The notes below the pieces were generated by a model that was not told the origin of the DNA, made no database searches, and saw only the letters and a program-made list of their open reading frames with translations. Source: a virus. From it: 26,779 nucleotides of DNA. Positions 11,941-26,779 of this stretch are shown here, one piece after another. The stretch spans positions 1 to 26,779 of IMG/VR virus record IMGVR_UViG_3300001778_000208. One strand, written 5' to 3'. The position numbers and the translations under genes are program-made. Every line of letters starts with the position of its first letter. The first letter of the stretch is position 1.

Positions 11941-14900
11941 ATGTCAACAATACTTAATTCAAGAGTTCTCAGTAATACTTATAAGGACGATTTTTCAGAT
12001 AGTGATGGCTATTATCGTATCCTATTTAATAGTGGCAGACCACTACAGGCTCGTGAACTTACACAAATGCAGACAATTCTGCAAGAGCAGATTAAAAGAT
12101 TTGGTAATAATATCTTTAAGGAAGGTGGTGTTGTAAAACCCGGAGAGGCCATTCTTAATAACTCATATGAATTTGCAAAGCTAATCACAACACAATATGC
12201 ACTTCCTTCACAGCCAAATTCTATTGTAGGTAATACATTCACAGGTAATATTTCTGGTATTACTGCCAGAATCATTGAGGTTGTACCGGCAGAAAATAGT
12301 GATCCAGCAACAATTTATATTGCATATACTAATGGTCCTACATCACAATCAGGTCTAACAACTCCTAGGTTTACTGCTGGTGAAACTATTACTGATGGAT
12401 CAGTAACTCTTAGAGTACAAGAAACAAATACAACTGCTAATCCTGCTGTAGGTAGAGGTTTGAGATACTCAATCGGTGCTGGTGTTTATTATGCAAAAGG
12501 TTTCTTTGTTTTTACCGAAGCACAAAGTTATATTGTTTCAAAATATACTGATACAGCAAATGAAATTGTTGGTTATAAAATTGTTGAAGATGTTGTAAAT
12601 GTTGATGATGATATTGGATTATATGATAATCAGGGTGCAGTACCTAATATTTCATCTCCTGGCGCTGACAGACTTAGAATTACATTAAATCTTACAAAGG
12701 AATCCGCAATTCAGGCCGGTGATAATTTTATTCCTATTGCTACAATTAAGGATGGTGTTGTCTTTAGAACTGTGGATGAGGATAATTCCTATAATGTTCT
12801 TAGAGATGTTATTGCTACAAGAATTAAGGAAAATTCTGGTGATTATATTGTAAAGCCATTTAAATTATCATTTGAAGAAGATTCAGATCAGGATAATCTT
12901 ATTATGAATGTAAGTCCTGGAACTGCAGTTGTTGATGGTTATAGAGCAAATTTATATACTCCGTATAAAAAAAGAATAGTAAAACCTTCAACAACAAAAG
13001 AAATTCAAAATGAAATTACAGCCATAGGATTTGGCAATTATGTTCTTGTTGATAATGGTACCTCGAATAATACTGCAGGGATGCCTAATATAAATTCATT
13101 TGAGAAATTAAATTTACGTACAGCTGTTAATCATGGTGGTTCTACAATTGGTACCGCTCGTGTCCGCCAAATTGTAAGAGATTCTGGTAATATCCTAAGG
13201 TATTATCTTTTTGATATTCAAATGAATAGTGGTCAAAATTTTAGAAATGTAGTGAGCATTGGTACTTCTGGCACTGATTATTTTAATCTATATAGACCAT
13301 TAGGTAAGGCAGAACTTAAAGAAGTAACAAAAAATAATTTATTATTTAACTTGCCACGATTTAGGCCTCAGGCATTAGATGATATTAGTCTTCAAGTACA
13401 ACGTAGATTTCAACAAACAACCGATGGTGCTGGTGCAGTATCACTTACACTAACGGCAAGTGGTGAAACATTTGCAAATACTGCAGATTGGATAGCGGCA
13501 CCAGATGGTGATGATATTCTAAATACCGGACTTACATTTGCATCAAGCCCTGTTGGTCAGGTTGCAGCAAATATTACAGGTTTAAGTGCATCAACCTCAT
13601 ATGAATTTTTAGTTTATGTAAATAAATCCATAGGTACAATTAGAAGTAAAACTAAAACTGAAACAACAATTACAGTTGCACCAGATGGTAATGGAAATAT
13701 TCCGCTTGGTAAAGCAGATATTTTTAAAGTAAAAAGAGTTACCATAAACGATTCTGATGGTTTGGATATTTCATCTAGATATGAATTAGATAATGGACAA
13801 AGAGATAACTATTATGCACTTGGTTCACTTAAACTAATAGCAGGAAATACAGCACCAACTACAGCCTTTGTAAGATATGAATATTTTACACACGGCGCAA
13901 ATGGTGATTTCTTTGCAATCAATTCATATACTGGTCAGGTTGATTATAACAAAATTCAGAATTATAATCTTGCAAATGGTAATCAAATTAATTTAAGAAA
14001 TGTAATTGATTTTAGATCAGTTATGGATTCGGATGGTGAATTTGCTAACTCTGCAAAGGGGGCAAGGGTTAATGAATTACCACAAGTAAATGATACAGTA
14101 CAATCTGATATTTCATATTATTTACCTGAAAAAGCTATATTATCAATTAATTCTGATGGTGTATTGGTACTTCGAACTGGTGATGCTTCATTTAATCCTG
14201 TGGCTCCTCGTACACCAGTTGGCAATCTAGCACTTTATGATATATTCTTTGGTCCAAACACGCTTAATGATTCAGATTTATCTATTACTAAACGTGATCA
14301 TCGCAGATATACCATGAAGGATATTGCAAGACTTGAAGAAAGAGTGGATCGTAATGAAGAAATGATTGCTCTTAATCTACTTGAAATTGATACAAAAAAT
14401 CTACAAGTGTTTGATTCCAGTGGTTTGGATAGAACTAAATCTGGATTTTTTGTGGACAATTTTAGTACTCAGATTTATTCAGATACTAGAAATCCAGATT
14501 ACAGAGCGGCAATAGATCCACAATTAAATCTATTGGTTCCAACTTTTAATGAGGATAATATTCGTTTAATTTATGATTCAGATGCCTCAACAAATGTAGT
14601 TAGAAAAGGTGATAATGTTTATTTAAAGCATAGTGTGGTGGAATACATTTCTCAAACACAAGCATCAAAGGCAATTAAAATTAATCCATTTGAAGCAATT
14701 GTGTATATAGGTGATATCCAACTTTCACCTTCATCTGATGAATGGAGAGAGGTTAATATTCGTGCAAAGAAAATGGTTGATGGTGGTACAAAACTTGATA
14801 CAACCCAAGCCTATCTTTGGAATAATTGGCAATGGAATTGGGGTGGTAAATCACTTGAATCCTTAAAGGTTGGAGACACCACCAATACAAAAACGGAAAC

Positions 14901-16038
14901 AACTTCTACAAAAATTCATTCAAATGTAAATAAGGTGGTTTCAGAAGAAACATTACTTGAAGTTATAAATGAAAAAGTAATCGACATTGCCCTAATACCA
15001 TTTATGAGATCACGTAAGGTTTATTTTAAAGCTGAAGGGTTAAGACCTAATTCTAAGGTATGGGCATATTTTGATGAGGTTCGAGTTGATGCATGGGTAA
15101 AAGAAGAAACATTTGTAAGAATGTCAACTGATCATAAGGATTATGGTAATACACAAAATAATGCTACTGCTCATCCAGAAGGTGCAACGGAATTAATTAC
15201 AGATACGAATGGTACTATTGAAGGTTCTTTCTTTATACCAAATACAAAATCAATTCGATTCCGCACTGGGATTAAAGAGTTTATGATTTTGGATGTTAGT
15301 GGTGGAGATAAAAAGAAAAGTGGAACAATCGCTGATGCGTTATATGCATCAACCGGTTATCTAGACACCATTGACCAAACAATAAAATCAACTCGTGTAT
15401 TGAATGTTGATCATGTTAGAACAAGTAAAAACAGATATATTCCACCTAGCAATAACTATGGAGGCGGTGGTAAGGAACATACGTCTCAGGGTCAAAAATA
15501 TTATCAAGGGACTGGTAAGACTGGTGCATCTGGTTTAAAAGCCTATAATGAAATGACACAGTCCCGTTTTGAAAGTAAAGGTATGGGGTCAAGTGGTGGT
15601 TCCGATGGTTGTTTCCTAGCCGGTACTATGGTTACAATGGCTGATGGTACATCGAAGGCAATTGAAACAATTCAACTTGGTGAACGGGTTGCAATTGGTG
15701 GAAGTATTTTTGCCAAAGGTGAATTCCTTGTGAATGATCTACATGATTATAAAGGAATTAAAGTATCTGGTTCGCACCCAGTTTATGAAAATGGTAAATG
15801 GGTACAAGTTGCAAACTCTGAACATGGTGTACCAATAAATAATGAAACAGTTGTGGTTTATAATTTTGGTACAGAAAATAGAAGAATTGAAATTGAAGGT
15901 ATTACATTTACAGATTACTTCGTTGCTTCAGAAACAGAGGCTTTGGAAGTAATGCAAGATGCATATCTTGAAAACTGGCGTGAATTAGTGGCTGAAAATA
16001 ATAAAGGTATGGTGGAAAGATTAAATAATGAATTGTAG
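11941..16038 (+). CDS. Large DUF4815-type virion protein with C-terminal Hint domain
   Basis: At 1365 residues this is the largest protein in the window, probably a major peripheral baseplate or fibre-holder subunit. The start ('SRVLSNTYKDDFSDSDGYYR' then 'ILFNSGRPLQARELTQMQTI') is the DUF4815-type N-terminus common in T4-like marine phages. A short coiled coil lies around 800-825 ('DIARLEERVDRNEEMIALNL'). The block 'IALIPFMRSRKVYFKAEGLR' followed by 'PNSKVWAYFDEV' (about 1018-1050) is another familiar virion domain. A Gly/Ser-rich linker (about 1175-1222) leads to a Hint domain: Cys1224 in 'GCFLAGTMVTMADGTSKAIE', then 'SGSHPVYENGKW' (His1279) and the final strands 'VVYNF' to 'DYFVAS'. The C-terminal His-Asn of true inteins is absent. 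The last 11 bases overlap the next gene. The AAGGATA leader supports the start. Confidence 0.8.
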   Translation: MSTILNSRVLSNTYKDDFSDSDGYYRILFNSGRPLQARELTQMQTILQEQIKRFGNNIFKEGGVVKPGEAILNNSYEFAKLITTQYALPSQPNSIVGNTFTGNISGITARIIEVVPAENSDPATIYIAYTNGPTSQSGLTTPRFTAGETITDGSVTLRVQETNTTANPAVGRGLRYSIGAGVYYAKGFFVFTEAQSYIVSKYTDTANEIVGYKIVEDVVNVDDDIGLYDNQGAVPNISSPGADRLRITLNLTKESAIQAGDNFIPIATIKDGVVFRTVDEDNSYNVLRDVIATRIKENSGDYIVKPFKLSFEEDSDQDNLIMNVSPGTAVVDGYRANLYTPYKKRIVKPSTTKEIQNEITAIGFGNYVLVDNGTSNNTAGMPNINSFEKLNLRTAVNHGGSTIGTARVRQIVRDSGNILRYYLFDIQMNSGQNFRNVVSIGTSGTDYFNLYRPLGKAELKEVTKNNLLFNLPRFRPQALDDISLQVQRRFQQTTDGAGAVSLTLTASGETFANTADWIAAPDGDDILNTGLTFASSPVGQVAANITGLSASTSYEFLVYVNKSIGTIRSKTKTETTITVAPDGNGNIPLGKADIFKVKRVTINDSDGLDISSRYELDNGQRDNYYALGSLKLIAGNTAPTTAFVRYEYFTHGANGDFFAINSYTGQVDYNKIQNYNLANGNQINLRNVIDFRSVMDSDGEFANSAKGARVNELPQVNDTVQSDISYYLPEKAILSINSDGVLVLRTGDASFNPVAPRTPVGNLALYDIFFGPNTLNDSDLSITKRDHRRYTMKDIARLEERVDRNEEMIALNLLEIDTKNLQVFDSSGLDRTKSGFFVDNFSTQIYSDTRNPDYRAAIDPQLNLLVPTFNEDNIRLIYDSDASTNVVRKGDNVYLKHSVVEYISQTQASKAIKINPFEAIVYIGDIQLSPSSDEWREVNIRAKKMVDGGTKLDTTQAYLWNNWQWNWGGKSLESLKVGDTTNTKTETTSTKIHSNVNKVVSEETLLEVINEKVIDIALIPFMRSRKVYFKAEGLRPNSKVWAYFDEVRVDAWVKEETFVRMSTDHKDYGNTQNNATAHPEGATELITDTNGTIEGSFFIPNTKSIRFRTGIKEFMILDVSGGDKKKSGTIADALYASTGYLDTIDQTIKSTRVLNVDHVRTSKNRYIPPSNNYGGGGKEHTSQGQKYYQGTGKTGASGLKAYNEMTQSRFESKGMGSSGGSDGCFLAGTMVTMADGTSKAIETIQLGERVAIGGSIFAKGEFLVNDLHDYKGIKVSGSHPVYENGKWVQVANSEHGVPINNETVVVYNFGTENRRIEIEGITFTDYFVASETEALEVMQDAYLENWRELVAENNKGMVERLNNEL
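15610..16035 (+). other. Hint (hedgehog/intein-type) domain at the end of the 1365-residue virion protein
   Basis: Covers residues 1224-1365. Seen: the nucleophile Cys1224 directly after Gly, the block A pattern 'CFLAGTMVTMADGT', 'IQLGERV', a block B-like Sxx-His (S1276, H1279), and a block F-like 'VYNF...IEGITFTDYFVAS'. Known of the family: Cys carries out an N-S acyl shift, and block B assists. Absent: the terminal Asn and a C-extein nucleophile. So protein splicing is not expected. Self-cleavage at Gly1223-Cys1224, or transfer of the upstream part to a nucleophile, remains possible. Confidence 0.75.
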
Positions 16039-16498
16039 AAATTGGAATTTAGATAATGATTATGATATGGTAACAGAATGGCTTAAAGGTCATCATTTTA
16101 ATTCTCTTCCACCTAAAAACATACTATCAAACTACGGTATTATAGTAGAAGAAGATAATAAAAGTATTTGTGCAGCTGCACTTTATATGGATACAGGGGA
16201 AAGAAAATCCGGATTTGCTTATATGTATGGAATTTTTTCAGATCCAAAAGCAAATAAAATAAAATTAGTAAAAGCCATGAAAATGTGCTTGAATGGAATA
16301 AAAAAATTAGCCAAAACAAATGATATAGATCTTATATGGACTACAACTGGTGAAAGTGCTTTACTTAGATTATATCCAAAAAATGGGATGACATTAGTAG
16401 AAAATAATTTATCAGCATTTATTGTGAATGTTAATGACAAATATACAGATCATCGATGGTTAATGAGTGCTGAAATCGAGAATGAGTTAACGAGGTAA
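16028..16498 (+). CDS. GNAT-like N-acetyltransferase
   Basis: A 156-residue protein with the layout of the GNAT acetyltransferase fold: an N-terminal strand-helix segment ('YDMVTEWLKGHHFNSLPPKN'), strands around 'YGIIVEEDNKSICAAALYMD', a central strand with 'AYMYGIFSDPKANKIKLVKA' where the acetyl-CoA pyrophosphate loop and helix would lie, and a closing 'LLRLYPKNGMTLVENNLSAF' segment resembling the GNAT 'lY.k.GF' end. The usual Q/R-x-x-G-x-G/A loop is not clear (K-A-N-K-I-K instead), so activity is uncertain. The ATG lies 11 bases inside the end of the Hint-bearing gene, with GGAAAG upstream, which suggests coupled translation. A small enzyme among virion genes is odd; a virion or assembly partner of the upstream protein is possible. 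Confidence 0.55.
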   Translation: MNCRNWNLDNDYDMVTEWLKGHHFNSLPPKNILSNYGIIVEEDNKSICAAALYMDTGERKSGFAYMYGIFSDPKANKIKLVKAMKMCLNGIKKLAKTNDIDLIWTTTGESALLRLYPKNGMTLVENNLSAFIVNVNDKYTDHRWLMSAEIENELTR

Positions 16499-16501
16499 AA
16501 A

Positions 16502-18076
16502 ATGGCAACTTCGCTAGGATACCAAATAAATAGAAATCCACTTGCACAGTCTTTCTATGTGGAAGATACTAATGGTATCTATCTTACAAAAATTGACTTA
16601 TACTTTAAAACAAGGGATACAACATCTCCTGTTAGTTTACAAGTAAGGCCTATGGTAAATGGATTTCCATCTACTGCGGAGATTATACCACAATCAATTG
16701 TTTATGTTAATGGATCGGCAGTAAATACATCTGCAGATGCAACTGCAGCTACAACTTTCGAATTTGAAGAACCTTTATATCTAAAAGGTTTAGAAGATTA
16801 TGCATTTGTTGTAATCACAAATAGTGCAACATATGAAATCTTTATTGCTCAAATTGATGAATTCGAGGTAGGAACAACTGCCGGTAGAATTGCGCGTAAT
16901 CCAGCCCTTGGCTCACTATTCTATTCAGCTAATGGTGGTACCTTTACAGCTGCACAAGATCAGGATCTTGCATTTAAAATTTACAGAGCAGAATTTGATG
17001 CAACCGTGAATGGTACTATTGTTCTTAAGAATGGATCATTACCTCAAAAACTTTTGGATGCTAATCCTATTCAAACAACTGCTGGAAGTTCTACTGTAAA
17101 AATTCAGGATATTGGGCATGGATTTGTTGTAAATGATCCTGTTACAATTCGTGGACTTGATTCTGCATCATCAATTGGTGGTATTCAGACAACTAGTATT
17201 ATGGGTAGTGCAAAAACAATTACTGCAGTTGATTGGACAGGATATGAAATCACTGCAGACTCTGCAGCAGATAGTGATGCAATTGGTGGTGGTATTTCAA
17301 CATTGGTTACCAAAAATATTCCATTCGGTGCATATTACAACAACAGTCAATTATTGATTCCGGAAAACTCTGCAATATATCCATCATACAAACCAGTACG
17401 TGGTAAATCATTTGCTGGAACTGAAACACCTTATGTTTTGGAACCAAACTTTATTGAAGGTATTGTTGGTGAAACAATAATTGAAAGAAAACCATATGTC
17501 GTAATGAATGATAATATTGAAACTGCAGAACTTGGGGCTGGTGTTAAATCATTTACACAAGAATTTCTTATGAACACTGATGATTCAAAAGTTTCTCCTA
17601 TGCTTGATTTGCAAAGATCCTCAGTAACTCTTATTGACGCCATAATTGATAATCAGGATTCTGCTGCAACTGTAGGATTTAATGTGCCACTAAATTGGGT
17701 ACCTGAAACAAGTGCGCGTGGTGGATCTGCAGCAGCAAAACATATTACAAAGAAAATAGAATTGGTAGAACCTGCTGTAGGTCTTAAAATCATTTTTGAT
17801 GCTATTAGGCCGAATGGATCTAACTTTGATGTTTATTATAGAACTGCTGAAGAAGGAATTGATATTCGAAATGTAGATTTTGTTTATCTACCAACAGAAA
17901 GTAATAATCCTACTGATGAAAATTTTACATATAGAGAATATCAATATCTAGCTGGAGGATTGGGTGGTGACCTTAGGGAATTTACACAATTTCAAATTAA
18001 AATTGTAATGAGGTCAACCAATCGTGTAAAAACACCGGTTATAAAGGATTTGAGAGTTATTGCATTGAGTGTTTAA
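16502..18076 (+). CDS. Virion structural protein (peripheral baseplate/fibre module)
   Basis: A 524-residue structural protein. The opening 'NPLAQSFYVEDTNGIYLTKI' and 'DLYFKTRDTTSPVSLQVRPM' belongs to a beta domain found in large virion proteins of marine T4-like phages, where it often follows a DUF4815-type region; here the two are on separate genes. Residues about 195-270 ('GHGFVVNDPVTIRGLDS' to 'YEITADSAADSDAIGGG') have the look of a small beta domain with the pattern 'hgf..gd.V.i.G', common in tail proteins. The C-terminal part ('GSNFDVYYRTAEEG' to 'FQIKIVMRSTNRVKTPVIKD') is a beta sandwich-like region typical of surface attachment. No enzyme motif. It follows the GNAT gene by 3 bases and ends 2 bases before the next ATG. 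Confidence 0.65.
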   Translation: MATSLGYQINRNPLAQSFYVEDTNGIYLTKIDLYFKTRDTTSPVSLQVRPMVNGFPSTAEIIPQSIVYVNGSAVNTSADATAATTFEFEEPLYLKGLEDYAFVVITNSATYEIFIAQIDEFEVGTTAGRIARNPALGSLFYSANGGTFTAAQDQDLAFKIYRAEFDATVNGTIVLKNGSLPQKLLDANPIQTTAGSSTVKIQDIGHGFVVNDPVTIRGLDSASSIGGIQTTSIMGSAKTITAVDWTGYEITADSAADSDAIGGGISTLVTKNIPFGAYYNNSQLLIPENSAIYPSYKPVRGKSFAGTETPYVLEPNFIEGIVGETIIERKPYVVMNDNIETAELGAGVKSFTQEFLMNTDDSKVSPMLDLQRSSVTLIDAIIDNQDSAATVGFNVPLNWVPETSARGGSAAAKHITKKIELVEPAVGLKIIFDAIRPNGSNFDVYYRTAEEGIDIRNVDFVYLPTESNNPTDENFTYREYQYLAGGLGGDLREFTQFQIKIVMRSTNRVKTPVIKDLRVIALSV

Positions 18077-21179: not shown

Positions 21180-21697
21180 TTATTGATCCTAAAACTCATG
21201 ATTTTATTAGAGCTCATTTTTCAAACAATGAAAGAACAATTATTGAGGCTGAATGGCGTAGAAAAAAAGAGCCAGAAATAGATATTGAAATAATTGTAGC
21301 CAAAGAATCAGAACCACAATATCAAAGGCTTTTGCAATTTATATCAATTGATGATTTACATGAGGCGACCTACAAATGGTTTAGAGAATCTGATGAAATG
21401 TATAAGGATCAAGTTATGGCAATTGCCAAAGAACGTGGTATGCTTATAGATATTGATGCAGCAAATACAGATGAAATGAAAGCCTTACTTGGAATTATTT
21501 TTGAAGAACCAAAATTTGAAAAACCATCGGATGAAAGAAAACACAAAGAAAAATTGTTTGCTTTAAAACTTGCATTATTTGAATTTAATTCAATTAAAGA
21601 TTCCAAAGACAGAGATTTAAAAACACAACTAAGAAAAGCAGATAATATGGTAGATGCTATGTATATTGGCCTTCAACTTGCTAGACAGAAAGATTAA
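21176..21697 (+). CDS. Unknown charged helical protein at the end of the structural operon
   Basis: I do not recognise this 173-residue protein. It is almost wholly helical by eye and highly charged (many Glu, Lys, Asp, Arg), with no Cys, no membrane segment and no repeats, unlike the beta-rich fibres before it. Such soluble helical proteins at the end of a fibre operon can be assembly factors that are not part of the virion; this is only inference. It is a real gene by context: it starts with a 4-base ATGA overlap with the preceding gene. Its last 17 bases overlap the end of the opposing glycosyltransferase gene. Confidence 0.6.
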   Translation: MIIDPKTHDFIRAHFSNNERTIIEAEWRRKKEPEIDIEIIVAKESEPQYQRLLQFISIDDLHEATYKWFRESDEMYKDQVMAIAKERGMLIDIDAANTDEMKALLGIIFEEPKFEKPSDERKHKEKLFALKLALFEFNSIKDSKDRDLKTQLRKADNMVDAMYIGLQLARQKD

Positions 21698-22460
21698 ATA
21701 TTTTTTCAAATTCTTTATTCACACAATGTAGCATATGAGCTCCGGCGGATATATTTTTGGTAACATGATCTAATATAAAATTCCATTGAAGTCCTATATT
21801 ACGATATGGGACTTTAAATCTTTCTATGATATAAGAAATAAAAACTTCATTATTATTTTGCCATACCTTAGAAATATTTTTGGGATATAGATTATCCAAT
21901 TTACTTTCTTCAAGTTTTGTAATACAAGAGTCTAATCTTTCGGAAAACATAAGATTTTCTAAAGATTTTTTATTTGCTCCAATAACACCTGTATTCATAC
22001 ATTCATCTAAACCTGATATATCATCTAATAGTAACATTGCATTTTTTGCACACGTTTTCACATACATATCCATTTTATGCCAATTATCATCTATCATTCT
22101 ATATCTAAATTGTTTATTGGGAAAATCAACAGGTAGTGAATATACACATATATTATCTAAATTAAAATTCTGAAAAAACGAAACATCGGTTTTTGGTATT
22201 ACATCAAAATCTAAATAAAGAATCTCATCATAATGTTTTGCTAATTTTTCCATTTGAATTATTTTATCAAATTGTAGTTTATCATAATCACACTCAGTTG
22301 TTGAAAATAATTCATAGTCGCTTTTACAAAGAAATGCATATTCTTTTTGTTTTATTTTTATTTGATCTTTATATTTTTCAAACTGAGATCTTTTATAATC
22401 AGATACAGAACTATGCGATTGTAAGTCGCTGTTGTAAATGCTAAAGATTATTCTTTTCAC
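21681..22460 (-). CDS. GT-A-type glycosyltransferase, tandem paralog 2
   Basis: Predicted cytoplasmic sugar transferase using a nucleotide-sugar donor. 'YDEILYLDFDVIPKTDVSFF' holds the metal-binding DxD (DFD, residues 84-86 from the chosen start) of the GT-A fold. 'MNTGVIGANKKSLENL' is the acceptor/donor loop block, and 'HMLHCVNKEFE' near the end carries a His that in related enzymes helps hold the diphosphate. Length is 259 residues. I chose the GTG at 22460: AGGA lies 6 bases before it and the product then aligns with the upstream paralog's start. An upstream ATG at 22481 is possible. It is the last gene of the cassette, overlapping the previous one by 20 bases. Donor and acceptor sugars are unknown. 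Confidence 0.7.
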   Translation of the reverse strand: MKRIIFSIYNSDLQSHSSVSDYKRSQFEKYKDQIKIKQKEYAFLCKSDYELFSTTECDYDKLQFDKIIQMEKLAKHYDEILYLDFDVIPKTDVSFFQNFNLDNICVYSLPVDFPNKQFRYRMIDDNWHKMDMYVKTCAKNAMLLLDDISGLDECMNTGVIGANKKSLENLMFSERLDSCITKLEESKLDNLYPKNISKVWQNNNEVFISYIIERFKVPYRNIGLQWNFILDHVTKNISAGAHMLHCVNKEFEKIFNLSV

Positions 22461-23226
22461 ACCAATTCCTAACATATTCAAAGTCTTTATTTATGCAGTG
22501 AATAAACTTAGTTCCTTTTGGAATATAACTCCATTTATCCATAAAATAATGCCAACCAGTATCTCTTAATTGTTGATATTCATCTAATTTACAAGCGATG
22601 ATTGTTTCATTGTCATAACCAAATAAATTTCTAATATCTTCTGGCCAAAAATCATCATTTATTAAATCACTCATCCTTTGAAGTGTATCATCTATATCGG
22701 AAAAATAATCTAATTCCTCTAAACATTTTTTTGATGCACCAATAATACCTGTATTAAAAACATCTTTTTCCTCTTCACAAAGTGCTCTTGCATTCCAGTA
22801 TTTTGCCAATGGTGATCTAACACTGTGTCTTTCTCTGTGATGATCCTTTAATCTCCAAGTTGATGCTCTTTCAGACATAATAGCAATTCCCTTTGATAGA
22901 TCCCATTCTTCAAAAAAGTTAAGTTTTGTTACAGGTATCACATCAAAATCTAAATAAAGAATTTCATCATAATTCAATTGATAGAGCAAATGTATTTTAT
23001 AAAAATTTATAATATTATATTCGGAAATTTCTGGACCAAATTTTTTACTAAACTCAATGTAATTCTCATCATATCCAAAGTGTTTATATTCAACACCACA
23101 TAATTCAGCATATTGTTTTTGTTTATCTAATAGCCATTGATAATTGTTATTAAACTTTTTTTGATTTTCAAAATGTGATACAGGTTTTTGTATATCAATA
23201 TAAAAACTATAGATCAGTCTAGACAT
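22441..23226 (-). CDS. GT-A-type glycosyltransferase, tandem paralog 1
   Basis: A sister of the gene that follows it. 'YDEILYLDFDVIPVTKLNFF' has the DxD metal site (DFD, about residues 93-95 from the chosen start). 'VFNTGIIGASKKCLEEL' and 'FIHCINKDFEYV' match the same blocks of paralog 2, and 'INDDFWPEDI' matches 'LDNLYPKNI'. At 261 residues it is nearly the same length. I chose the ATG at 23226, which overlaps the preceding stop (ATGTCTAG) and gives the same beginning as the paralog ('SRLIYSFYID' against 'KRIIFSIYNS'); an ATG at 23268 would add 14 residues. There is no membrane segment, so it should act in the cytoplasm, perhaps on a lipid-linked or protein acceptor. Substrates are unknown. 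Confidence 0.7.
   Translation of the reverse strand: MSRLIYSFYIDIQKPVSHFENQKKFNNNYQWLLDKQKQYAELCGVEYKHFGYDENYIEFSKKFGPEISEYNIINFYKIHLLYQLNYDEILYLDFDVIPVTKLNFFEEWDLSKGIAIMSERASTWRLKDHHRERHSVRSPLAKYWNARALCEEEKDVFNTGIIGASKKCLEELDYFSDIDDTLQRMSDLINDDFWPEDIRNLFGYDNETIIACKLDEYQQLRDTGWHYFMDKWSYIPKGTKFIHCINKDFEYVRNWCEKNNL
22467..22470 (-). promoter_or_regulatory. Ribosome binding site that favours a GTG start
   Basis: AGGA on the - strand, six bases before GTG (22460-22458). The ATG codons further upstream lack an equally placed site, and homology with the neighbouring paralog begins right after this GTG. Confidence 0.55.
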
Positions 23227-23845
23227 AACCAATAACCATAAACCTTTGATAACCATTTGGCATGTCAAGCGAGCCTTTATACATTATTTGTGATAACCCA
23301 GATTTTTCTACTAATTCATTCTCATCATTCACGCAATTGATATGATCGTCAATGTGAAACATATTATTACTTTGCAAAGCAAAAAGACATTCGGAATTGT
23401 GTTTTTTGTTTTTAATAATTTCTGGTAAACTTACCATATGTTCTGAAGATGTGTTAATCACCAAATGAAAATCTTTATCTCTATTTCCTACCTCACACGC
23501 ATCTCTTTCATGACTATCAAATATGACTCTTTCTATATCAGAAGAATATCTTCTAAATATTCTTAATGCTCTTGGATCAATATCAACATTTTCTACAAGG
23601 GAAATATTTAGTTTTTGCATTAAAAGATTACAAAGGGGGAATCCAAACCATCCTCCTAATAATTGAACCTTTATATTATTCTTATCCATTAGAATCATTT
23701 CTAATGTATCTGTTAACCATATTTTTGATTGAATTTGATTTGGTGACATGCTATCTAAAAAATGGCGCATATCATATCCTTCATTACACGCATCCCATAA
23801 TATTTGCCAAACCTTAGGATTAATCCCAGTAATGTTCGTATCCAT
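23219..23845 (-). CDS. Class I SAM-dependent methyltransferase
   Basis: Predicted methyl transfer from S-adenosylmethionine to a small molecule or sugar. Motif I is the glycine-rich 'VQLLGGWFGFPLCNLL'. It is followed by the ribose-binding acidic loop 'LVENVDIDPRALRIF', 'FHLVINTSSEHM' as the motif IV strand, and the end blocks 'LFALQSNNMFHIDDHINCV' and 'MYKGSLDMPNGYQRFMVIG'. This set marks a methyltransferase family I know from marine phages and bacteria, usually beside glycan genes; its substrate is not established. I chose the ATG at 23845 because AAGG lies five bases upstream; an ATG at 23857 would add four residues. It overlaps the previous gene's end by 26 bases and the next gene's start by 8. 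Confidence 0.7.
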   Translation of the reverse strand: MDTNITGINPKVWQILWDACNEGYDMRHFLDSMSPNQIQSKIWLTDTLEMILMDKNNIKVQLLGGWFGFPLCNLLMQKLNISLVENVDIDPRALRIFRRYSSDIERVIFDSHERDACEVGNRDKDFHLVINTSSEHMVSLPEIIKNKKHNSECLFALQSNNMFHIDDHINCVNDENELVEKSGLSQIMYKGSLDMPNGYQRFMVIGYV

Positions 23846-24527
23846 TATAACCTTCATTATCTAAAAGATATTCATTATTGATTACGTCTGTTTTTCTTCT
23901 CCAACCATTAAAAATACAAACAGTATAATCACTTTTAAAATAATAGTTTGGTTTTATATTATCACCTGCTCTCCAATAATTATCTTCATTAATGCCATAT
24001 AGTCTAGAATAAACTTCGTTCCTCGGTATGTACAAAAGTTTTTCATTTTGATCATGATCTAGGTAGGAATCTATTCCATTGTATTTTACCATATAATAAT
24101 CCAAATCCTTTTCAAATTTTATCCATAAATCAGTACAATCGCCGGACCATATCATTATAGATGAATTTAAATTTGTATCAAGTTCAGTTATATCATATGG
24201 TTTCCAATATGCCTTTATAAGACAAAGCATATCTTCCACACAATAATTCTTGAAATGTGTAATATCATTTTGTATTACAACATCTAAATCTAAAAACATT
24301 GTAGGAGTTTTTGTCGGATGCTCGAAAAGAGTAAGTTTCCACCACCAATTTTCTAAGTCATAATCTGGTAATGGTTGTATGATTATATTACGATCTATTC
24401 CATTTGCGTTTTCTGTATAGCAAATAAAATTAAAATCGTCATGAAAGTTTTTACACACCATTCGATATAATCTATTGACGTGTTCATGACTAAATTTGTC
24501 ACCCCACTTTAGACATACAATATTCAT
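23820..24527 (-). CDS. GT-A-type glycosyltransferase (second subfamily)
   Basis: A 235-residue predicted nucleotide-sugar transferase. The opening 'MNIVCLKWGDKFSHEHVNRL' is the first strand-helix of this family. 'PTMFLDLDVVIQNDITHF' holds the metal-binding DxD (DLD, residues 80-82). 'NSSIMIWSGD' is the typical middle loop, and 'TVCIFNGWRRK' closes the active site. It is distinct from the two tandem paralogs: different spacing, a Trp-rich 'NWWWKL' before the DxD, and no HC(V/I)NK end. It starts 29 bases before the end of the carbamoyltransferase gene, with GGTAATAA before the ATG. No membrane segment or signal peptide. Donor and acceptor are unknown. Confidence 0.72.
   Translation of the reverse strand: MNIVCLKWGDKFSHEHVNRLYRMVCKNFHDDFNFICYTENANGIDRNIIIQPLPDYDLENWWWKLTLFEHPTKTPTMFLDLDVVIQNDITHFKNYCVEDMLCLIKAYWKPYDITELDTNLNSSIMIWSGDCTDLWIKFEKDLDYYMVKYNGIDSYLDHDQNEKLLYIPRNEVYSRLYGINEDNYWRAGDNIKPNYYFKSDYTVCIFNGWRRKTDVINNEYLLDNEGYNGYEHYWD
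23851..23854 (-). promoter_or_regulatory. Ribosome binding site of the methyltransferase gene
   Basis: AAGG on the - strand, five bases before the ATG at 23845. It lies within the coding end of the upstream glycosyltransferase gene and between the two candidate ATGs, so it favours the inner one. Confidence 0.5.
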
Positions 24528-25878
24528 TTATTACCAACATATCCATTTCAGTTTTTTCATATGTTTTAATTGCTTCTTCAGGAGTTTCCACAATAGGTTC
24601 CTGACAATTAAAACTTGTATTTAATAACATGGGAATTCCAGTTATTTTATAGAACTCATAAATTAAATCATAAAATTTTTCATTTTGTTTTCTATTTATT
24701 GTTTGTATTCTTGCCGTATTATCTATGTGTGTAACACCAGGAATTTTATCTGAAATCACAGGTACAATTCTAGACATATACGGACTTGGTTGACTGGTAT
24801 CAAAATAATCCTCATAATATTCTTCTAATACGGAAGGTGCAAATGGTCTAAAATCCTCTCTCATTTTAATTCTTTTATTGATTCTATCTTTGATATTAGG
24901 ATTACGAGGATCTGCTAATATACTACGATTTCCTAATGCTCTATGTCCTGATTCTGATTTACCTTGATACCAACCAACGATTTTACCATTTGCTATTCCT
25001 TGAGCTACTTCTGTTATATTAACTTTTTCTTTTCCAATATATTCGTATTCTTTACCACCATATGTATCTGGAATATGCACATTTCTATTTAATGTGAAAT
25101 CAGCATGCATGTAAGTTCCTAGTGATTGACCTTCATCTCCTGGCGCTGGAGGCACATGAACATGTGAATAATATTTTGTAAATTCTTCATTCATATATCC
25201 ATTATATGCAACCCCACCGGCGATACAAAGTTTATTACATGATTTTAAAGGTAAGACATGTTGTTTTACTAATTCGATGGTGTGATATTGTAGTGTGGCG
25301 GCAATGTCTTCTTTTTTAGCATTTAACAAATAATCATAATTTTTATTTTCCAATGCCAAATGTATAGCAATATTATACTCTCCATATGCAGATAAACCCA
25401 TAAGTTTACCAGCACCTAAATCACCAAAACCTAATCTTTTAGAAAAATAGTTCCATTGTAGACCTATTTGTATTTTATCTGATAGGTCAGTAATGTTTCC
25501 ATTTTTATCAAAGAAAACACATTTATAATTCCAACCTCGGCCATCAATTGCTAAAACATCTGACTGTAAAAACCCTGATGTTAATAATGCATAAGCAGCA
25601 TGAGATTGATGATGATCAATATAGTATAGATTATCTTTGTACCAATAGTCCCATAATTTTTTTGGTTTAAAAGATAAACACTCGTGATCAAATCCTGTTT
25701 TTTCAACACCACCTATTGTTACTGTTAAGCACAATGGATCATTTGGTTTATAATATTCATTGAAAAAATCTAGAGTTCCATCAAAATTATGTTTAATACG
25801 ACTATGTCTTTCAATCTGATTATGGTGTATACCATCATAAGTATTATGATCATGTGGACCAATAGCAATACTAAACAT
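24499..25878 (-). CDS. NodU/TobZ-type O-carbamoyltransferase
   Basis: Transfers a carbamoyl group from carbamoyl phosphate through carbamoyl-AMP to a hydroxyl of a sugar. The metal-binding set of the N-terminal Kae1-like domain is present: H89 and H93 in 'IDHHQSHAAYAL', D112 in 'VLAIDGRG', with the same 23-residue His-to-Asp spacing as TobZ, and D248 in 'PPAPGDEGQSLG'. The C-terminal YrdC-like part has 'SESGHRALGNRSILADPRNP', 'MREDFRPFAPSV' and 'MLLNTSFNCQEPIVETPEEA'. At 459 residues it is shorter than the usual 540-590. The front is compact: 'SIAIGPHDHNTYDG' replaces the usual longer opening, and the central region looks reduced. The key residues look intact, so activity is likely. The ATG overlaps the upstream stop (TAATG). 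The acceptor is probably a glycan built by the neighbouring transferases. Confidence 0.92.
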   Translation of the reverse strand: MFSIAIGPHDHNTYDGIHHNQIERHSRIKHNFDGTLDFFNEYYKPNDPLCLTVTIGGVEKTGFDHECLSFKPKKLWDYWYKDNLYYIDHHQSHAAYALLTSGFLQSDVLAIDGRGWNYKCVFFDKNGNITDLSDKIQIGLQWNYFSKRLGFGDLGAGKLMGLSAYGEYNIAIHLALENKNYDYLLNAKKEDIAATLQYHTIELVKQHVLPLKSCNKLCIAGGVAYNGYMNEEFTKYYSHVHVPPAPGDEGQSLGTYMHADFTLNRNVHIPDTYGGKEYEYIGKEKVNITEVAQGIANGKIVGWYQGKSESGHRALGNRSILADPRNPNIKDRINKRIKMREDFRPFAPSVLEEYYEDYFDTSQPSPYMSRIVPVISDKIPGVTHIDNTARIQTINRKQNEKFYDLIYEFYKITGIPMLLNTSFNCQEPIVETPEEAIKTYEKTEMDMLVINEYCMSKVG

Positions 25879-26779
25879 TATATACTCCGCACTTGTTGTT
25901 GGTCAAAATTTCTTAATATTGTACTACATGCATATTTACAAACTTTATTTGGATTTCTATCAATTGTATCTTTTAAATGATTTTGAAACCAATTGCTGTA
26001 TATTATCTCATATAAGGATCTATGTTTTATATTATAATCTAATCTATTTGTATTATATGCTTTTATAATTTCATGATTTCGATAATATGAAGTAGAATGT
26101 AAATCTCTGCTTCCAAAATAACAACAAGGCCAAACTTGACCGTCAAAATTTATTTGTAAGTGAGATGTTTTTGCCCATCTGCATTCTATTTTTTCACTAA
26201 TGTTATTTGTATTATGACTTAAAAATGGATTATCTAATTTTTTATCTGCCCATTCTAGCGTTTCACTTTCACCATTTTCATTTGTAAAATGATATGTATT
26301 ACCATCTTTAAATCTATCACTTTTTACAAATTCGTGATAACTACTGCCATAATTTTTAACCAGTTGTTTTATTTCATCTATATAGTCCTGATTATGCTTA
26401 AACAATATTGTTTGTGATTTTACAATTGAACCACCAGCTTCTGAAAAAACTTTCATATTATTTAATATTTTATTTAGATCAGTATTCCTTCTATATTTTT
26501 CATGCATCTCCTGACTAATTCCATCAATATCAAAAGTAACATGTAAATCCGATTTATATCGAAAAGGAAGTCCTCCCAATTTCCACCAAAACTCTTCATC
26601 GCGCATTGAGCCATTCGTGTAGATATACACATTCGAATAGGGTTTTAAATTTTCTAGGAAGTATTTTATAATTTCATAAATGTCTGGATTAACCATTGGC
26701 TCTCCCCAAGTAGGACAGAGTGTAATGCTTTTTATATTACATTTATGTAATTCTTCTTTTGAATAAAATTTTTTTACTT
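25878..26779 (-). CDS. Radical SAM/SPASM protein (5' end outside the window)
   Basis: The frame stays open from an internal ATG at 26696 to the window edge. Translating it on gives 'SITLCPTWGEPMVNPDIYEI' across that ATG, which is the radical SAM 'GEPxxxP' motif, so the true start and the CxxxCxxC iron-sulfur motif lie beyond 26779. Visible next are 'VYIYTNGSM', 'HVTFDIDGISQEMHEKYR' (TIM-barrel strands), and a SPASM-type C-terminus with C in 'IECRWAKTSHLQINFDGQVW', CC in 'PCCYFG' and the final 'VCKYAC'. Known relatives modify peptides or sugars by radical chemistry. The stop overlaps the carbamoyltransferase start by one base, so they should be co-translated. The substrate is unknown; a role in the same glycan pathway is inferred from context. 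Confidence 0.8.
   Translation of the reverse strand, partial: VKKFYSKEELHKCNIKSITLCPTWGEPMVNPDIYEIIKYFLENLKPYSNVYIYTNGSMRDEEFWWKLGGLPFRYKSDLHVTFDIDGISQEMHEKYRRNTDLNKILNNMKVFSEAGGSIVKSQTILFKHNQDYIDEIKQLVKNYGSSYHEFVKSDRFKDGNTYHFTNENGESETLEWADKKLDNPFLSHNTNNISEKIECRWAKTSHLQINFDGQVWPCCYFGSRDLHSTSYYRNHEIIKAYNTNRLDYNIKHRSLYEIIYSNWFQNHLKDTIDRNPNKVCKYACSTILRNFDQQQVRSI

Follow-up and report, generated by a model that had tools for sequence, protein, structure and literature searches.

Why would a Hint domain, intein-like but without the means of completing splicing, sit at the end of a phage baseplate protein? The question arises in a 26,779-nucleotide stretch of viral DNA (the whole of which is called the window here; positions 1–26,779 of IMG/VR record IMGVR_UViG_3300001778_000208) from an uncultured, probably marine phage. 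Its open reading frame ORF1 (1365 aa; 11941..16038; plus strand, as are all features below unless stated) carries a C-terminal Hint domain, and ORF2 (156 aa; 16028..16498), whose first 11 bases overlap ORF1, encodes a partner with a GNAT fold. Our answer, held tentatively and rated a little short of an even chance, is that the Hint domain would make a thioester at Gly1223–Cys1224 and the partner would act on that thioester, the two genes forming a mobile two-part processing cassette. Chemistry at the first cysteine in some form is probable; the action of the GNAT on the thioester ranks below it. An initial annotation of this DNA had drawn attention to the Hint domain; the GNAT partner, the exchange of the cassette, the split of the host protein at the Hint domain and the FTDYF signature described below had gone unseen in it.

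Hint relatives were gathered by a profile scan of IMG/VR (140 in all); at least 93 distinct relatives come from uncultured phages, and residue conservation was counted across 93 distinct Hint–GNAT pairs, with Cys1224 of ORF1 as Hint residue 1. An AlphaFold model of the Hint domain based on 37 relatives reached a mean predicted local distance difference test score (pLDDT) of 93.3. Foldseek matched it with probability 1.00 to bacterial intein-like (BIL), intein and hedgehog structures, the top PDB matches being the BIL domains 6tmm, 6y75 and 2lwy, with inteins and hedgehog 1at0 lower. On the single sequence the Pfam Hint families remained below cut-off (Hom_end_hint, 2.5e-5; Vint, 4.5e-4). A family profile built without the window and its nearest relative scored the domain at 4e-59 and reported 0 of 200 shuffled Hint domains. 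These results bear out the placement of a Hint domain at residues 1224–1365 of a 1365-residue ORF, as well as the Hint fold that the initial annotation had expected from structure prediction.

The Hint core runs from Cys1224 to Phe1327 (Hint residues 1–104; 15610..15921). Ahead of Cys1224 lies the previously noted Gly/Ser-rich linker (residues 1155–1223; 15403..15609), and after the core comes a helical tail of about 38 residues (15922..16035; helices 106–115 and 117–141 in the AlphaFold model). Cys1 (15610..15612), the candidate nucleophile, is present in 93 of 93 sequences and preceded by Gly in 84 of them, and all 93 also have the block B His, which is Hint residue 56 within the motif SGSH (15775..15777); both are kept down to about 43% identity. 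In place of the C-terminal His-Asn of inteins, every sequence has FTDYF (Hint residues 100–104; 15907..15921), as expected from the earlier remark that His-Asn is missing. Invariant residues total 24: C1, F2, T6, M10, K16, G30, G31, Y47, G49, V52, G54, H56, V58, E60, W64, V83, Y84, G87, I95, F100, T101, D102, Y103 and F104. The fold together with Cys1 and the block B His places the domain in the Hint superfamily. It is not an intein, the C-terminal His-Asn and a +1 Cys/Ser/Thr with C-extein being absent and Thr101-Asp102-Tyr103 invariant. The claim that there is no C-extein needs qualifying: about 40 residues come after the Hint core (helices within Hint residues 106–141), and in nearly all relatives the ORF ends at most 4 aa from the end of the Hint profile. 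A pretoxin Hint of a polymorphic toxin with an immunity gene was also considered and ruled out: the tail is only 38 residues long, no toxin domain is present, and the partner has a GNAT fold.

The missing His-Asn, and the position of the domain between the two halves of one ancestral protein, would also suit a functionless relic, namely a degenerate intein whose C-terminal part was lost and which split the gene. The ratio of nonsynonymous to synonymous substitution rates (dN/dS) of the Hint domain against its nearest relative is about 0.15 (0.12/0.82), which points to purifying selection. This ratio and the conservation rule out an intein relic, and the unrelated host proteins and joint exchange with the GNAT described below also speak against a relic, a reading to which we give next to no probability.

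The AlphaFold model of ORF2 (pLDDT 95) had 306 PDB matches at E ≤ 0.001, and the matches listed are GNATs, 3g8w, 1mk4 and RimI 2cnm among them. Pfam gave no match in 30 of 30 members of the ORF2 family examined. The GNAT gene accompanies 102 of 108 distinct Hint loci. The six loci without it are all cut by contig ends: five have 0–162 bases remaining, and the sixth (L049; L-numbers are labels of compared loci), with 612 bases remaining, is of the fibre type, in which the GNAT sits 1.2 kb off. The two genes overlap or almost touch in 70 loci and are separated by an insert of 1.2–2 kb in 32. Where examined, the insert encodes an Asp/Arg hydroxylase and a short-chain dehydrogenase; fibre-type loci such as L062:5416-6640, L111:3119-4283 and L119:984-2214 thus carry an Asp/Arg beta-hydroxylase (PF05118) and the dehydrogenase between the Hint protein and the GNAT. 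The reverse search, run with single queries, found Hint at 69 of 74 GNAT loci; four of the other five begin at a contig edge without room for it, and one holds a GNAT fragment only. As a control from the same gene position, among 73 contigs anchored on a neighbouring fibre gene, 34 had both genes, 39 had neither and none had one alone (Fisher value 1e-21, overstated, as the contigs are not independent). Pairwise distances of Hint and GNAT are correlated (r 0.59, Mantel p 0.001). Wherever the flanking sequence suffices, Hint and GNAT are strictly linked in both search directions.

The acetyl-CoA pyrophosphate loop motif [QR]xxGx[GA] occurs in 0 of 62 GNAT partner members, and Tyr116 is kept in 60 of the 62. 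By analogy with GNATs in general rather than by superposition, Tyr116 may be the general acid that would protonate the leaving thiolate. Distant relatives of this GNAT are carried by isolate phages of Flavobacterium, Cellulophaga, Tenacibaculum and Maribacter and by one metagenomic phage (L114–L118); in four of the five loci they lie after a tail structural or other virion gene, and Hint was not detected there. A tRNA-acetylating toxin was ruled out as an identity for the GNAT, since likeness to the TacT/AtaT fold appears far down the match list and the acetyl-CoA loop is absent.

The protein that carries the Hint domain is one half of the baseplate protein VrlC, which is described as taking the place of T4 gp7 in a double-layered baseplate (PMC7029224). 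ORF1 matches Pfam DUF4815 (1.3e-53), phrog_358 (3e-244) and the PDB 9euf chain "DUF4815 domain-containing protein" (2e-23), and it is colinear with the one-chain proteins of C48C1, pf16, Mosig and HTVC008M. ORF3 (524 aa; 16502..18076), which begins with MATSLGYQINR immediately before the conserved NPLAQSF region, matches phrog_358 at 4.7e-117 and also 9euf. Residues 8–1154 of ORF1 align to residues 7–1148 of the C48C1 protein and residues 11–524 of ORF3 to residues 1155–1661, so that the junction is filled exactly by linker, Hint and ORF2; by these alignments ORF1 and ORF3 are the N-terminal and C-terminal halves of VrlC. The tail protein named in the initial annotation is thus a baseplate VrlC, but its N-terminal half rather than the complete one-chain protein. 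One-chain VrlC of 1635–2665 aa is found in the Pelagibacter phages Mosig and HTVC008M, phage C48C1, Pseudomonas phage pf16 and cyanophages, with gp8 adjoining it in most isolate records, and the solved baseplate chain 9euf (1152 aa) contains both halves. Joining of ORF1 and ORF2 by frameshifting was ruled out, as the coordinates show that the relative frames of ORF1, ORF2 and ORF3 vary among loci.

In one relative (L214), VrlC is a single chain that includes, at residues 1210–1355 and immediately ahead of DPLAQSF, a canonical His-Asn Hint (L214:5530-5967), and this internal Hint occupies the same junction at which the VrlC of the window is split, which suggests that the junction tolerates or uses cleavage. 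This relative, the break of the isolates' one-chain VrlC at exactly this point, and the presence of RimI, an N-alpha-acetyltransferase, among the closest folds of the GNAT would all fit a joining in the style of split inteins, in which the N-terminus of ORF3 attacks the ORF1 thioester, with or without the GNAT, and the VrlC halves are reunited. ORF3, however, has no C-intein segment at its start, which rules out a trans-splicing split intein. Split VrlC relatives with neither Hint nor GNAT (L205–L208, L210 and L232) indicate that rejoining is not needed for function, and elsewhere Hint is carried by unsplit proteins, namely Gly-rich fibres and proteins of phages with podovirus-like gene order. 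Such joining is accordingly very doubtful in our estimate. More widely, no GNAT was found in the split VrlC relatives without Hint (L199–L210, L232) or in the one-chain relatives.

The cassette also has a history of its own. Compared with L002, the window is 57% identical in the N half, 84% in Hint, 84% in GNAT and 52% in the C half; compared with L022, the values are 84%, 61%, 34% and 82%, respectively. The nucleotide identity profile changes partner near 15.5–15.6 kb and again near 16.5 kb. The left edge falls in the linker, where one-chain homology ends at about residue 1154 and identity switches at about 15500–15600. In the tree of the C half (13 of 37 rows dropped by a motif filter), Hint-bearing rows are mixed among Hint-less rows, and L046, split and with Hint, pairs with the one-chain HTVC008M. 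The identity profile is the main evidence here, the tree alone not being relied on, and it indicates that Hint and GNAT are exchanged as one block.

Other modules occupy the Hint site in relatives. The N half of VrlC may end there in a CFI-box-CTERM module (L200; NF041770, 4e-10, just below cut-off), a Peptidase_S74 chaperone (L209), Cys-containing modules (L199, L204) or none. Interchangeable, mostly Cys-containing modules of this kind (CFI-box-CTERM, CCSQM, ICTATFG, VICTWLQ and Peptidase_S74) stand behind Gly-rich linkers in the last ~150 aa of the VrlC N half in L199, L200, L204 and L209 and in the fibres of L236, L283 and L294. Tandem Hints also occur: in L041:4560-5423, L055, L082 and about 15 others, the FTDYF Hint is immediately preceded (HN-KG-C) by a canonical one whose end is VVHN; in L267, L275 and L276 a canonical Hint likewise precedes an unrelated "IICTKLFELGYL" module.

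A chaperone, another module or nothing at the same C-terminal position would suit a Hint domain that is an end cap and hydrolyses itself off after assembly, much as S74 chaperones are removed, with the GNAT separately modifying the virion protein or assisting its folding. The related GNATs that follow tail proteins of flavobacterial phages without Hint agree with this. A purely hydrolytic cap would not, however, require a strictly linked partner, and GNAT and Hint were never apart in the viral contigs examined; we consider a self-removing cap rather unlikely.

Under the cassette mechanism, the Hint domain of ORF1 would carry out an N-to-S acyl shift at Gly1223–Cys1224, so that the baseplate protein would end in a thioester. 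Reviews describe this acyl shift for both BIL and hedgehog domains (PMC4031507; PMC7765530), and BIL domains form an N-terminal thioester (PMC4031507). Splicing would not be completed, His-Asn and a C-extein nucleophile both being absent, and because the domain lacks these parts either water or a nucleophile from elsewhere would have to resolve the thioester. For this step the partner with the GNAT fold readily suggests itself, and it would either move the C-terminus onto an acceptor amine or promote release. The fold, the conserved residues, the partner linkage and the joint exchange are observed, and from them we infer the thioester, its acceptor and a part for the GNAT in catalysis. Either of the two outcomes put forward in the initial annotation, release of the Hint domain or covalent attachment through the thioester, may occur. 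In a more specific form, which we regard as unlikely, the GNAT would use the Hint thioester instead of acetyl-CoA and attach the tail protein covalently to an amine of another virion protein, possibly the other half of VrlC, or of a host-surface molecule. We know of no GNAT that draws an acyl group from a Hint thioester.

Several observations weigh against the cassette mechanism. Several helpers of canonical Hint chemistry have been replaced: Ser (83 of 93) or Ala (10 of 93) stands in place of the block B Thr, and mostly Val and Arg in place of the block F Asp and His, whose assignment is by eye. Cys1 and the block B His are the sole canonical assisting residues retained, so the earlier view that the N-terminal chemistry residues persist holds for these two but not for the block B Thr or the block F Asp and His. 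The distant GNATs of the flavobacterial phages also lack the acetyl-CoA loop where checked, with no Hint upstream, and loop loss therefore did not arise for Hint. With the catalytic residues of blocks F and G gone and C-terminal modules swapped among relatives in the manner of receptor-binding or host-range modules, the Hint fold could have been reused as a non-catalytic binding or structural module at the exposed tail end, with the GNAT as its chaperone or binding partner. A mere binding domain, however, would not demand an invariant Cys1 and block B His in 93 sequences or Gly at −1 in 84 of 93, and we judge a non-catalytic tip domain distinctly unlikely. If the partner does use the Hint thioester, as the cassette mechanism allows, the pair would amount to a naturally occurring system of protein ligation or anchoring that could be turned into a tool, and it would account for the two-piece coding of the baseplate protein.

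Hint is always C-terminal in its ORF and mostly stands behind a Gly-rich linker, and its carriers are mutually unrelated: VrlC, Gly-rich fibre proteins and large low-complexity phage proteins, some in phages with podovirus-like gene order. The family had no match among 50,697 phage isolate records, and GTDB genomes yielded a single true member: L119, whose phage-like contig had been binned with a metagenome-assembled genome of marine Verrucomicrobia. No Hint model of PHROG, Pfam or NCBIfam was above cut-off on the family, and no publication on a Hint–GNAT system was found in the open-access literature, preprints excluded. The pair looks like an undescribed two-part system that would process or attach the termini of virion proteins. 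Its Hint subfamily has a distinctive signature and an invariable partner gene, and is carried by tail proteins and other proteins apparently of the virion in uncultured phages that are mostly marine, judging by their kin. With the cassette, a long-standing idea becomes open to test: that surface proteins are diversified by intein-like domains.

Elsewhere in the window, a minus-strand island (21681-26779) encodes two family 8 glycosyltransferases, a carbamoyltransferase and a radical SAM/SPASM protein, and resembles the host recognition cluster reported downstream of VrlC in pelagimyophages (PMC7029224).

Among known Hint systems, type B BILs, which cleave without splicing (PMC4031507), are nearest, sharing the Hint fold with Cys1 and the block B His, lacking block G and providing the top fold matches. 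The present family differs in its phage virion carriers, its FTDYF end with helical tail and its obligatory GNAT partner; it is only ~16–21% identical to solved BILs, and no family model matches it above cut-off. It is not a type A BIL, as the C-terminal His-Asn is replaced by FTDYF throughout. The hedgehog Hog domain resembles it in being a C-terminal Hint with nothing to splice, with a segment after the Hint core and, as we infer here, a thioester open to an outside nucleophile. Fold similarity is lower (1at0; template modelling score 0.45) and the Pfam Hint module PF01079 scores 13.6–16.8 bits against a cut-off of 29.7, so the hedgehog-type layout first proposed is right as to C-terminal position but implies no special kinship, BIL folds being nearer. 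The best viral fold match is to Hint proteins of giant viruses (Megaviridae and Cafeteria roenbergensis virus; A0A5J6VLR4 and several proteins of the latter), with a root-mean-square deviation of 2.0 Å over 108 residues and 22% identity, although these belong to other viruses and other host proteins. ORF2 shares the fold of GNAT acetyltransferases such as RimI and YqjY (3g8w, 1mk4, 2cnm) and differs from them in having no Pfam match, no acetyl-CoA loop motif and a linkage to Hint. Finally, ORF1 and ORF3 correspond to the two halves of the VrlC/DUF4815 protein of T4-like marine phages and 9euf; that protein forms a single chain in the solved 9euf and the examined isolates, whereas here it is encoded by two ORFs with the cassette between them.
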